From Syntrophaceae bacterium (GTDB lineage Bacteria > Desulfobacterota > Syntrophia > Syntrophales > PHBD01), in contig JABLXX010000001.1 in the NCBI GenBank assembly GCA_013177825.1, forward strand, positions 272,936 through 336,935: a stretch of DNA of 64,000 nucleotides, given 5' to 3'. The notes under the pieces are model-generated. The model was not told the origin of the DNA. It made no database searches and saw only the letters and a list, made by a program, of their open reading frames with translations. Positions 37,672-56,940 of this stretch are shown here, one piece after another (position 1 is the first letter of the stretch; each line of letters starts with the position of its first letter). The position numbers were made by a program, and so were the translations under genes.

Positions 37672-38070
37672 ATGAAGGAACAGGATCTGCAGAAACAGAC
37701 GGCTTCGAACCCGGTGGAAATGGAACGGACAAGAAACCGCAAGGTGTATGTTCCCCGGGTCGATATCTATGAGACGAAGGAGTCCATCGTACTGCTGGCC
37801 GATATGCCGGGCGTGGACGAGGGTTCAGTGGACATCGTGCTGGAAAAGAACGTGCTGGCCATCAACGGAACGGTGGAACCCGTCAGTTTCCCGGGTCACA
37901 ATCTTGTGTATGCCGAGTATGACACGGGGGATTATCAGCGGGCCTTCACCCTTCCCGAGGAAATCGACCAGAACAGGATTGAGGCTACAGTGAAAAACGG
38001 GGTTCTTCGCGTCGTTCTTCAGAAAGCGGAGAAATCCAAGGCCAGAAAGATCGCCATCAAGGCTGCATGA
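37672..38070 (+). CDS. Small heat-shock protein (Hsp20), second of three
   Basis: 132 residues with a short, polar N-terminal arm and an alpha-crystallin domain (VYVPRVDIYETKESIVLLAD to VKNGVLRVVLQKAE), tail KIAIKAA. The arm lacks the hydrophobic content of its neighbours, so this subunit may form smaller assemblies or mixed oligomers. It starts 18 bp after the first gene and overlaps the region before the third. Confidence 0.92.
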   Translation: MKEQDLQKQTASNPVEMERTRNRKVYVPRVDIYETKESIVLLADMPGVDEGSVDIVLEKNVLAINGTVEPVSFPGHNLVYAEYDTGDYQRAFTLPEEIDQNRIEATVKNGVLRVVLQKAEKSKARKIAIKAA

Positions 38071-38087
38071 GAAAGGAGGTGGCAGGT

Positions 38088-38594
38088 ATGCCAATCCGCA
38101 GGCTGTTGCCATCGCTCCGGGGAGAACCCGCGGTTCCGGCGGGAAAGGAAAACGTTCATCCTTTCTCAGTCCTCCAGCAGGAAATGAACCGGATCTTCGA
38201 AGATTTTTTCCAAGGCACGGCCCTCTCGACGTTTCCCGCCTCCGGCGAGCATGTCGGGTCGTTCTATCCATCCGTGGACGTGAAGGAAGGGGAGAAGGAG
38301 ATCGTCGTCCATGCGGAACTTCCCGGAATGGAGGAGAAGGACGTGGATCTCCTTCTGGAGGAGTCTTCGCTGGTTCTCAAGGGGGAGAAGAAATTCGAGA
38401 AGGAAGACAAGGGTGAGGGCTACCATACCATTGAACGAAGCTACGGGTCGTTTCGCCGGGTCATTCCCCTGCCCCGGGAGATCGATTTGAACAAGACGCA
38501 GGCTCGTTTCAAGAACGGCGTCCTGACGGTCACCTTGCCCAAGAAGGAGCAGGCGAAGGCGAAAGGGAAGAAGATACCCATTCAGTCCGCCTGA
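38088..38594 (+). CDS. Small heat-shock protein (Hsp20), third of three
   Basis: 168 residues from MPIRRLLPSLRGEP, chosen because AGGAGG lies before it; a longer frame begins inside gene two. N-terminal arm with EMNRIFEDFFQG as in many sHsps, alpha-crystallin domain (SFYPSVDVKEGEKEIVVHAELPG-like), and KIPIQSA as the I-x-I tail. Three tandem, clearly different paralogs suggest hetero-oligomers. The operon ends at the palindromic left end of the 0.46-kb repeat. Confidence 0.93.
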   Translation: MPIRRLLPSLRGEPAVPAGKENVHPFSVLQQEMNRIFEDFFQGTALSTFPASGEHVGSFYPSVDVKEGEKEIVVHAELPGMEEKDVDLLLEESSLVLKGEKKFEKEDKGEGYHTIERSYGSFRRVIPLPREIDLNKTQARFKNGVLTVTLPKKEQAKAKGKKIPIQSA

Positions 38595-38662: not shown

Positions 38663-39124
38663 AAAGAGGAGGAGCGGATTTGAAATCCGCTCCTCCTTTT
38701 CTTTCTTTTTGCATCGTGGCGCGGGGGCTGTCACGGGGATTCCCGCCGTCGCGGAGAATTTTCCGCGGAGTGCATTATCCGACCGAGCAGCCATCCGGGT
38801 GGAAAATTCTCCTGATTGCTCCTCTGGGAACCCCCGGCCGCCCCCCGCGGATGGCGGGGAGTGGGGCTTCCCGGAGCGCGAATAGAGGCTTTTTCGGGGC
38901 ACCCTGCCGTCGCAGCGCAGCGCCCGCAAAGTCATCTGTCTGAGCGCCGCAGGCGCGAGTTATGACTTTGCAGCGGAGGAGACGCTGCAGGGTCGAAAAA
39001 ACTCTTCTGAGCGCGAGGGAAGCCCTCTCCTGCGAGTCGGCTTCTCAGCCAGGGACGCCGGGTTGCTTAAAAAAAGAATAAAAGAAAAGAAGGGGAGCGG
39101 ATTTCAAATCCGTCCATCCTCTTT
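38663..39124. repeat. 0.46-kb self-complementary repeat element, copy 1
   Basis: Nearly identical to 55357-55823 and in the same orientation; inside the end palindromes I count about three differences in some 420 bp. The left end is a perfect palindrome (38668-38696, 14-bp arms, core GGATTTGAAATCC). The right end is a decayed version (39094-39119). Ends 38663-38681 and 39106-39124 are complementary at 17 of 19 positions. Inside are GGAGAATTTTCC with its complement, and a nested rod of stems at 38864-39025 (GGGCTTCCC/GGGAAGCCC outermost). It lies between convergent hsp20 and yjbQ, and its end hairpins are followed by U-rich tracts on both strands, so they can serve as terminators. It codes for no plausible protein. 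Confidence 0.85.
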
Positions 39125-39157: not shown

Positions 39158-39556
39158 TCAGGGATCCGACACCAGCTTCACCATAACGTTTCGCGTCCTC
39201 GGACCGTCGAACTCGCAGAAGAAGACGGACTGCCATGTGCCGAGCACAAGGCGGCCCCCTTCGATGATGAGCGTCTCCGAGGCTCCGAAGAGAGAAGCTT
39301 TCACGTGGGCGTCGGAGTTGCCCTCCCGGTGGCGGTAGGGGCCGTCGGCCGGGACCAGCTTTCCTGTGGTCGCGAGGATGTCCCGGACGACGTCCGGATC
39401 CGCGTTTTCATTGATGGTCACCGCGGCGGTGGTGTGGGGCACGAAGACGATGCAGATGCCGTTCTCTAGACCTTGCTCGCGAACGGCGGACTGCAGGGCG
39501 TCGGTGATGTCGATCATCTGGATGCGGGCGCCGGTCCGGACGGTGATCGTTTTCAT
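39158..39556 (-). CDS. YjbQ/UPF0047 family protein (secondary thiamine-phosphate synthase type)
   Basis: 132-residue protein with the family signature VPHTTAAVTINENADPDVVRD and PYRHREGNSDAHVKASLFG; conserved His and Asp residues form the site. Members show weak thiamine-phosphate synthase activity, but the true role is uncertain. Its start overlaps the HD-domain gene stop by four bases. Confidence 0.9.
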   Translation of the reverse strand: MKTITVRTGARIQMIDITDALQSAVREQGLENGICIVFVPHTTAAVTINENADPDVVRDILATTGKLVPADGPYRHREGNSDAHVKASLFGASETLIIEGGRLVLGTWQSVFFCEFDGPRTRNVMVKLVSDP

Positions 39557-54275: not shown

Positions 54276-55307
54276 ATGGAAATCGGCATTGTCGGGCTTC
54301 CTCAGAGCGGAAAAAGCACCCTCTTCGAGATCATGACCGGGACGAAAAGCCGGGAACTCCACGGCGAGACGGTCGTCCGGGGACAGGCAACGGTTCCGGA
54401 CGCGCGTTTCGACCGCCTGGCCGCCGTCTTTCCCGAACTCAAGGCGGTTCCGGCCCGGATCCCCGTCACCGACGTCCACGCAGCGGGCGAGAAGGCCTGG
54501 GAGACGCTGCGGCAGAGCCTGAGCGGGGCTGACGGCCTCCTGCACGTGGTGGATGGCTTTACGATTCCCGAGGTCGACGAGGTCATCGCCTCCTACCGCC
54601 GCCTCGAAGACGACCTAGTTCTCTCGGACCTGATGGTCGTCGAAAACCGCCTCGAGAAGCTCCGGAAAATGTCCCGAACGGCCATGAAGCCGCTGGATCA
54701 GCTCCATCTGGCCATCCTTCCCCGGGCCAGGGAACGGCTGGAGGCGGGACTCCCGCTGCGGGAGGCGGGATTTTCCGAGGAAGAGGCCTTCTCCCTCCGC
54801 AGCTTTTCCTTCTGGACGATCCGTCCCGAACTCGTGGTGATCAATACGGCTGAAGACAATCTGGCCCTGGCGGAGGCCTTTCGGGAGAAGGCGGCCCTGT
54901 CGTCGCCGGTCATCGGGATCTGCTGCCAGCTCGAGGCCGACCTGGCGGGCCTCTCGCCGGAAGAACAGAAGGAGTTCCTGGACCCCCTGGGCCTTGAAGA
55001 GCCGGCCTTTGGACGGGTCATCCGGGCGGCGTTTTCACTCTTGGGCCGCGTTTCCTTCTTCACCATCGGCAAGGAAGAGGTGAAGGCCTGGGTCATCCCA
55101 ACGGAGACGAAGGCGCCTCGGGCGGCCGGGGCGATTCACAAGGACTTCGAGCGGGGTTTCATCAAAGCCGAAGTGATTCACTTCGAAGAGTTCGAGACCT
55201 CCGGGAAATCCTGGACGGCCGTGAAGGCGGCGGGAAAGCTGCGGCTGGAGGGGAAGGAATACGTCGTTCAAGACGGCGATATTATTCAGTTCCGATTCAA
55301 CATCTGA
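54276..55307 (+). CDS. YchF/Obg-type GTP- or ATP-binding protein
   Basis: 343 residues, slightly shorter than YchF. P-loop GLPQSGKSTLFEIM; LVVINTAEDNL matches the N-x-x-E nucleotide-base motif of YchF/OLA1; the C-terminal TGS-like domain ends YVVQDGDIIQFRFNI. Switch II normally reads D-x-A-G-L-V; here VTDVHAAGEKAWETL departs from it. It therefore looks like a divergent paralog rather than the universal YchF. Role unknown. Confidence 0.85.
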   Translation: MEIGIVGLPQSGKSTLFEIMTGTKSRELHGETVVRGQATVPDARFDRLAAVFPELKAVPARIPVTDVHAAGEKAWETLRQSLSGADGLLHVVDGFTIPEVDEVIASYRRLEDDLVLSDLMVVENRLEKLRKMSRTAMKPLDQLHLAILPRARERLEAGLPLREAGFSEEEAFSLRSFSFWTIRPELVVINTAEDNLALAEAFREKAALSSPVIGICCQLEADLAGLSPEEQKEFLDPLGLEEPAFGRVIRAAFSLLGRVSFFTIGKEEVKAWVIPTETKAPRAAGAIHKDFERGFIKAEVIHFEEFETSGKSWTAVKAAGKLRLEGKEYVVQDGDIIQFRFNI

Positions 55308-55356: not shown

Positions 55357-55823
55357 GCGAGAAGGGGAGCGGATTTCAAATCCGCTCCTCCTTTTTCTTT
55401 CTTTTTGCATTGTGGCGCGGGGGCTGTCACGGGGATTCCCGCCGTCGCGGAGAATTTTCCGCGGAGTGCATTATCCGACCGAGCAGCCATCCGGGTGGAA
55501 AATTCTCCTGATTGCTCCTCTGGGAACCCCCGGCCGCGCCCCCGCGGATGGCGGGGAGTGGGGCTTCCCGGAGCGCGAATAGAGGCTTTTTCGGGGCACC
55601 CTGCCGTCGCAGCGCAGCGCCCGCAAAGTCATCTGTCTGAGCGCCGCAGGCGCGAGTTATGACTTTGCAGCGGAGGAGACGCTGCAGGGTCGAAAAAACT
55701 CTTCTGAGCGCGAGGGAAGCCCTCTCCTGCGAGTCGGCTTCTCAGCCAGGGACGCCGGGTTGCTTAAAAAAAGAATAAAAGAAAAGAAGGGGAGCGGATT
55801 TGAAATCCGCTCCCCTTCCTCGC
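55357..55823. repeat. 0.46-kb self-complementary repeat element, copy 2
   Basis: Second copy, same orientation as 38663-39124. End palindromes lie at 55366-55388 (core GGATTTCAAATCC) and 55789-55815 (perfect 13-bp arms). Ends 55357-55376 and 55803-55823 pair over 20 bp with one bulge. Internal pairs: 55449-55460 with 55497-55508; then nested stems 55561-55569/55714-55722, 55587-55593/55691-55697, 55598-55604/55684-55690, 55623-55632/55659-55668, and GCGCC/GGCGC at the tip (55641-55653). It again lies between convergent genes (YchF-like and DUF362-ferredoxin). On the minus strand the right palindrome followed by its U-rich tract should terminate the DUF362 transcript. Confidence 0.85.
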
Positions 55824-55827
55824 ATAT

Positions 55828-56940
55828 TCAAACCAGCCGTTTCACCACCGGGCGGAGCATGCGGCCCATGAGGGGCTCCGCCGTCCGGAGGGCGCCGCGG
55901 GGGCAGACCTCGATGCAGCAGTAGCAGCGGATGCAGGCGTCGTAGTCGAAGCGGAGCCCCGCTTCTTCAACCGTGATGGCCTTTGCCGGACACATGTCCC
56001 GGCAGATGCCGCAGAGCGTACAGGATTCCGGATCGCACACGGGCCGCTGCAGCAGGTGGCGCCGGACAAGGCTGTTCATGGACGCGCTTCCGAAGAGGAG
56101 GGGCTCCGCTCCGGGGATCCGGAATCCCCGGACCTCCGGCGTTTCCCCGTCGATGGCGACCTCCTCCCCGGGCAGTCCCAACTCCTGCCCCGACCGCCAG
56201 GTCGGGAGCTTCTCCGGCTGGAGCCCCACGATGCGGCAGACCGCCTCGTCCAGGGCGAAAGGGTCCGTGGCGGCCATCAGAACACCGAGCGCCCGGGGAG
56301 TGCCGCTCCTTCCGGGTCCCTCTCCCTCCATCGCCAGAATCCCGTCCAGGACCGTGAACGCCGGCCGGACGGTCCGGGCGATCCGCACGAGGAGCCGGGC
56401 AAAGTGATCCCGGTCCACTCCCGCCCGCAGGTGCCATTCGGCCTTGCGGTACCCTACGACGCATCCGAAGAGGTTTTTCACGCCCAGCGTCATCGCCATC
56501 TGGCTGTGGGTCTTGAGCTTCGGCAGATTCAGGATTGTGTCCGCCGTCAGGACCTCCCGGGCCAACTCGATCTTTCCGAAGGGCGGTCCCACGTCGACAG
56601 GAACGGAATCGCGGAACTCGCGGACGGTCACGGGAAGGCCTTCCAGGGCCTGGTCGATCCCGTTTTCCCGGAGGATCCGGTCGAAGGAGCCGATGGCCTG
56701 GCTGTCCCCGACCTCGGGACGGGCGCCCCGCTCCAGGATGTACTCCACGGCGGCCCGGACGACGAGCGGATGGGTCAGGACGGCCTGGCCGGGCTTTGCC
56801 GCCGACAGGAGGTTCGGCTTGACGAGGACCCGCATTCCTTTTCGGATGGCCTCCCGGCCGCCCAGGCGGTCCATCAGGGCGTCGAATTCCTCCTTGAGAT
56901 GCGGCCAGTCGTAGGATGCCGGTCGGACGAAGACGTTCAT
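55828..56940 (-). CDS. DUF362 protein with two C-terminal [4Fe-4S] ferredoxin clusters
   Basis: 370 residues. The DUF362 domain (about 1-290; VLVKPNLLSAAKPGQAVLTHP, TILNLPKLKTHSQMAMTLGVKN) is followed by two cluster motifs, CTLCGICRDMCPAKAI and CIRCYCCIEVCPRGAL. Such proteins are common in anaerobes and may carry electrons or deliver Fe-S clusters. Stop overlaps by four bases the start region of the downstream-facing neighbour (ATGA with the hydrolase gene). Confidence 0.9.
   Translation of the reverse strand: MNVFVRPASYDWPHLKEEFDALMDRLGGREAIRKGMRVLVKPNLLSAAKPGQAVLTHPLVVRAAVEYILERGARPEVGDSQAIGSFDRILRENGIDQALEGLPVTVREFRDSVPVDVGPPFGKIELAREVLTADTILNLPKLKTHSQMAMTLGVKNLFGCVVGYRKAEWHLRAGVDRDHFARLLVRIARTVRPAFTVLDGILAMEGEGPGRSGTPRALGVLMAATDPFALDEAVCRIVGLQPEKLPTWRSGQELGLPGEEVAIDGETPEVRGFRIPGAEPLLFGSASMNSLVRRHLLQRPVCDPESCTLCGICRDMCPAKAITVEEAGLRFDYDACIRCYCCIEVCPRGALRTAEPLMGRMLRPVVKRLV

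Follow-up and report, generated by a model that had tools for sequence, protein, structure and literature searches.

A gene-less palindromic repeat of Syntrophales with a widespread structured core and signs of mobility in relatives

What kind of element is a repeat that encodes nothing, and why should two of its copies be nearly identical? The question is raised by a 64,000-nt stretch of DNA (the window; positions 272,936-336,935 of contig JABLXX010000001.1, assembly GCA_013177825.1) from a Syntrophaceae bacterium (Syntrophales; PHBD01), in which an initial annotation had pointed to a non-coding repeat at two loci. Both copies (38663-39124 and 55357-55823) are present and non-coding, with 98% identity across 450 bp, and the sequences outside them are unrelated to each other. 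They probably belong to a gene-less, multi-copy palindromic mobile repeat, whose MITE-type core (module B) is moved by an IS5-family transposase in relatives and is built, in the window's genus, into composites that change in place.

Anatomy and in-place change in the window's genus

Both window copies sit between convergent genes. Copy 1 is flanked by an Hsp20 gene (38067-38594, + strand) and a YjbQ/UPF0047 gene (39158-39556, - strand), and copy 2 by genes for a YchF-like GTPase (54276-55307, +) and a DUF362/4Fe-4S (ferredoxin) protein (55828-56940, -); the C-terminal domain of the GTPase scores above the Pfam cut-off, and the full-length match falls short of the NCBIfam threshold. Copy 1 opens with the terminal palindrome AGGAGGAGCGGATTTGAAATCCGCTCCTCCT (38667-38697), which also occurs alone at some element-free sites, and a pyrimidine tract (38690-38711, +); judged from their sequence, the two may act together as an inward-facing intrinsic terminator. 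These are followed by hairpin module A (38718-38854, +), module B (38860-39031, +), a purine tract (39068-39094, +) and the right terminal palindrome (39091-39119), which has its core CGGATTTCAAATCCG at 39098-39112 and a degraded outer arm. Copy 2 has the same layout, with a left palindrome GGAGCGGATTTCAAATCCGCTCC (55366-55388; outer arms reaching 55357), pyrimidine tract (55389-55406, +), module A (55414-55551, +), module B (55557-55728, +), purine tract (55766-55790, +) and right palindrome AAGGGGAGCGGATTTGAAATCCGCTCCCCTT (55787-55817). The annotated features of the ends were borne out: GGAGCGGATTTSAAATCC is restricted in the window to the four element ends (7 strand matches against 0.01 expected), and the purine tract is the inverted counterpart of the pyrimidine tract. 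About three differences had been counted in the core, and about three or four are found inward of the terminal palindromes, namely a T in the pyrimidine tract, a C/T site before module A and a CCGCGCCCCC change. The fold is strong on both strands (z = -9.2 on + and -10.4 on -, relative to dinucleotide shuffles), as annotated, though it comprises two modules rather than the single nested rod of about 160 nt that had been proposed.

The element is by no means confined to the two loci originally noted. A whole-genome nucleotide search of the window's own 4.24-Mb assembly (G000) returned 64 matching pieces, of which 27 are core copies according to a covariance model of module B, and the nearest sister genome (G001) holds a similar number. 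From 30 own-genome loci, the full order of the element is palindrome, pyrimidine tract, module A, module B, purine tract, palindrome. The palindromes share the core CGGATTTSAAATCCG, and their sequence differs among copies while self-complementarity is kept; module A (about 137 bp) has a conserved base (GGCGCGGGGGCTGYCACGGGG...) and a tip that is variable yet self-complementary; module B is about 170 bp long. Many copies are partial, and solo palindromes are located just after genes. A second hairpin repeat (GGGCTGTTCAAAAATGCCCGGATGCAAGG ... GGTACGTCGAATGGCGAAGG ... TTTTTCAACAGCCC) lies in the right flanks of four own-genome loci (L020, L022, L028 and L010). At the sensitivity used, module A is restricted to the window's genus, and module B is the old part of the composite.

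Comparison with G001, an independent assembly, bears on why the two window copies are so alike. Orthologous elements occupy both places in G001 at the same 16.8-kb spacing. Modules A and B of copies 1 and 2 are 100% identical to each other without gaps, whereas copy 2 shares only 84.4% (A) and 95.1% (B) identity with the G001 element at its own site; for copy 1 and its G001 counterpart, the values are 99.3% and 97.6%. Recent copying or gene conversion, one of the origins initially suggested, thus fits well, and these identities are most simply read as the sequence of copy 1 having replaced that of copy 2. Overwriting of one copy by another would account for the near-identity of the pair. The same near-identity could be produced by a recent segmental duplication, or an assembly artefact, affecting these two loci only, but the unrelated flanks, the approximately 27 core copies and the G001 orthologues at both places refute this explanation, which can be given practically no credence.

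Gain or loss and reorientation are also apparent between the two genomes. Some sites occupied in G000 have no element in G001, which in two cases (L012/L231 and L010/L236) has a single palindrome opposite the palindrome-element-palindrome of G000. Judged against the anchored flank, module B points the same way in both genomes at nine of the 17 jointly occupied sites and the opposite way at eight. However, only eight pairs are anchored on both flanks (five same, three opposite, the latter having the form A-B-A' in G001), and the singly anchored pairs lie at contig ends, where large rearrangements or assembly effects are possible; strong in-place inversion at eight of 17 sites is therefore claimed less firmly. 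When L005 is compared with L046, the sister contig diverges past the element on one side, which suggests that a rearrangement, or else a chimera at the contig end, broke within the repeat.

The differing orientations at shared sites, and the lone palindromes where a sister genome has palindrome-element-palindrome, could reflect a dedicated site-specific recombinase that uses the terminal palindromes as sites to invert or excise the composite. This is improbable, given that neither a recombinase nor any other mobilising gene was found to recur beside copies in other clades, where the recognisable recurring neighbours are housekeeping genes, and that palindrome sequence varies between copies while self-complementarity is kept. 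Moreover, template switching can invert and homogenise such inverted repeats without a dedicated enzyme (PMC8604942). In the preferred explanation of a mobile repeat changing in place, module B has been joined in the window's genus to hairpin A and to terminal palindromes that are also found on their own, and comparison with G001 shows the resulting composites changing mostly by overwriting, change of orientation and loss leaving one palindrome. Inversion and arm homogenisation may proceed through recombination between the inverted ends, or through template switching there during replication.

Distribution and fold of module B

Module B extends far beyond the genus. The covariance model (R1), built as the initial annotation had proposed, is based on an alignment of 24 diverse copies and a chosen structure; it matches the window copies at 38868-39027 and 55565-55724, and recognises module B in 94 of the 155 Syntrophales genomes sampled and 42 of the 395 in a sample of the phylum Desulfobacterota. 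B-like pieces were also detected by BLAST in further families within Syntrophales. When 85,000 species genomes were scanned for an exact pattern, 119 stretches were returned, and each of the 80 listed comes from a MAG labelled Syntrophales, Syntrophaceae, Syntrophobacterales, or loosely Deltaproteobacteria or Proteobacteria. The module occurs in forms of about 100, 160 and 180-230 nt. In the short form, a single GCAGCGNAGCG motif lies at the apex, while in the longer forms this motif flanks an inner hairpin on both sides, and the inner hairpin has been swapped for another repeat in some genomes. Five loci of one genome (G140; L104, L106, L122, L064 and L066) carry a GGAAAATGGGGACAGCTCCCTATTTT-type hairpin at the B apex, between two GCAGCGNAGCG motifs.

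The stems of module B covary, and its purine-rich internal loops are invariant across the phylum. In the 24 aligned copies, 89% of the cells at paired positions are paired and 22 pairs have changed on both sides, with 100 cells showing compensatory change compared to 30 in shuffled alignments and at most 48 in slid ones. Mismatches within the stems are asymmetric. With one count per sequence cluster, G-U outnumbers A-C by 214 to 78 overall and by 19 to 6 when only the inner stem, which varies freely, is considered, whereas about equal numbers are expected of a neutral DNA palindrome. This asymmetry suggests that the + strand, in the notation used here, is the one that folds, either as RNA or as single-stranded DNA, and the fold has probably been kept because one strand has to fold in one of these forms. 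It may confer some advantage or be maintained at the DNA level.

These properties also support an alternative in which module B is first and foremost a functional structured RNA, either a small RNA or a 3'-UTR element, that spread through selection on the RNA, with mobility being secondary. Covarying stems with invariant loops across the phylum and the excess of G-U on one strand speak for this explanation, as does the recurrence of some placements between housekeeping genes (e.g. guaA-carB and purL-purQ). However, between co-directional genes, module B is antisense to both more often than sense (64:36 across all loci; 64:35 outside the window's genus; gene calls from a simple codon model, related loci not being independent), and terminator-like palindromes with inward T tracts lie at both ends of the window copies; together, the antisense bias and the terminators do not favour co-transcription with neighbours. 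Orientation can also differ between sister species, and Rfam returned zero matches above the gathering threshold, consistent with the earlier remark that no RNA family was recognised. Compensatory change is not in itself proof of RNA selection, given that template switching homogenises hairpin arms and can thereby yield covarying stems without it (PMC8604942). A primarily RNA-based element is thus considered unlikely. Regarding the large structured RNA envisaged in the initial annotation, the strongly conserved fold is upheld, and a transcribed RNA with a function may or may not accompany it; neither of the findings that were to count against that annotation, a two-copy assembly duplication or a match to a known RNA family, was encountered. 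As a separate observation, module B lies in the guaA-carB gap of several genera (L206, L268, L036, L103, L132, L172 and L092), each time antisense and 11-19 nt past the guaA stop, through either deep inheritance or a favoured site.

Mobility in relatives and a candidate IS5-family partner

Further indications of mobility come from outside the window's genus. Module B elements of G140 and other Syntrophales start with GAGACCTTTG and end with CAAAGGTCTC. Both terminal repeats are kept within two mismatches in only 20 of the 173 distinct B copies, and in these 20 the 5-bp flanks agree at 0.62 of positions compared to 0.26 for mismatched pairs, with perfect agreement in five; the agreement peaks at 5 bp, with nothing comparable at other lengths. 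Vacant orthologous sites, which the initial annotation had recommended looking for, were found within the window's genus and, between sister species, in another genus (e.g. L104 against L303; L064 against five genomes). One locus (L326, G011:C17:8244-8277) is a 34-bp remnant made of just the two terminal repeats GAGACCTTTGAAAAATCCAAATTTCAAAGGTCTC, between flanks GCAAA and ACAAA.

A search for these ends in three genomes turned up a degenerate IS5-type gene located behind GAGACCTTTGCACAAC, and an order-wide search with its protein led to elements of about 1.4 kb with ends GAGACCTTTGCACAACT / CAAAGGTCTC. Perfect 5-bp duplications border six of 15 of these elements (flank agreement 0.61, compared to 0.27), and their transposase, enclosed by the matching ends, scores 180.6 bits on the NCBIfam IS5 model NF033581 (cut-off 140) and contains DUF772 (PF05598) and DDE_Tnp_1 (PF01609) domains. 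Given the shared ends and the shared duplication length, this IS5 transposase is inferred to be the mover, such that B elements with GAGACCTTTG ends would be moved in trans and generate 5-bp target duplications in these relatives. The partner is present in 24 of 154 sampled genomes. The protein query has no match in G000, and G001 has a single IS5-type copy (L349, G001:C28:48201-48581) with an in-frame TAG, intact ends and no 5-bp duplication. In the window's genus, the two copies and the other members of the family show neither GAGACCTTTG ends nor recognisable target duplications. Mobilisation of the window copies by this enzyme is hence extrapolated from relatives, and with IS5-type ends absent from the two, their original placement can only be surmised. 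The non-autonomous element with a transposase elsewhere that had initially been suggested is accordingly supported for the relatives of module B, through their ends, 5-bp duplications and vacant sites, and not for the window copies, which lack IS5 ends.

Other vehicles were considered. Contig C3 of G011 was rejected as an autonomous copy, as two B copies there flank a regulator gene and not an insertion sequence. Carriage as plasmid or phage cargo was likewise rejected, with no BLAST match in the plasmid or phage collection and a single IMG/VR contig. The repeat might instead be REP/REPIN-like, with a Y1 (RAYT/IS200-IS605) transposase moving it in single-stranded form, as its palindromes are intergenic, one strand folds, and Y1_Tnp genes are found in many Syntrophales. 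This is very improbable: Y1_Tnp is absent from G000 and G001, the genomes richest in composites; across the order, Y1 genes show no association with module B, being found in 64 of the 94 genomes that have it and 47 of the 61 that do not (Fisher p = 0.28); and 5-bp duplications indicate a DDE enzyme. Terminal repeats, 5-bp duplications, empty sites and a matching IS5 element together lead to the favoured interpretation of the family as a MITE whose fold is conserved. Internal covariation of this strength is not typical of MITEs and counts against that interpretation. A bolder extension, which is tentative and rather unlikely, is that this phylum-wide element has a genuinely functional interior, either an RNA or single-stranded DNA in folded form. 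It would then be a selfish hairpin, retaining a complex three-dimensional fold, that borrows an IS5 transposase to spread and afterwards becomes an invertible, self-homogenising composite.

Comparison with known repeats

By the properties seen in relatives, the element is a MITE, and in the window's genus it is a BIME-like mosaic. It is non-coding, shorter than about 600 bp and present in multiple copies; other Syntrophales, though not the window copies, have terminal inverted repeats in common with an autonomous insertion sequence; and target duplications have a fixed length of 5 bp in relatives, with none to be seen at the window copies. Descriptions of bacterial MITEs usually deal with one genome at a time and treat the interior as dispensable. 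Here, the interior of one MITE is recognisable across a phylum by a covariance model, the two sides of its stems changing together and its loops staying constant. This provides a system for testing whether covariation in bacterial repeats reflects RNA function or arises incidentally when DNA arms are homogenised. It also means that a mobile element will turn up in screens that use covariation to find new RNAs in Desulfobacterota. Annotation of both the family and its IS5 partner in genomes is now possible.

A literature search, with the paper on Chunjie lying outside it, returned no earlier description of the element for Syntrophales. Described bacterial MITEs (Chunjie of Geobacter and the QMITEs of Coxiella; PMC10969869) are likewise short, gene-less, intergenic, multi-copy and variable in length, with terminal repeats, target duplications, transcripts predicted to fold and truncated copies that resemble REPs; the comparison with Chunjie is one of description. 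The present element differs in having a core fold that covaries across a phylum and, in one genus, composites with a second hairpin and palindromes. With IS5-family insertion sequences, the B-bearing miniature elements share ends (GAGACCTTTGC.CAACT / CAAAGGTCTC) and 5-bp duplications, although they have no transposase gene and the similarity is limited to the ends. The BIMEs and REPINs of enterobacteria and pseudomonads (PMC3116915) are also intergenic mosaics of many-copy palindromic modules; however, the modules described here are far longer, their internal loops are conserved and the window's own genome has no RAYT partner. Combined and solo palindromic modules lie between genes as in BIMEs, a comparison made on layout. 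Correia (NEMIS) and ERIC elements are intergenic palindromic mobile repeats of about 100-150 bp that fold in RNA (reviewed in PMC2229807); these belong to other lineages, and the element of Syntrophales is likened to them by description.
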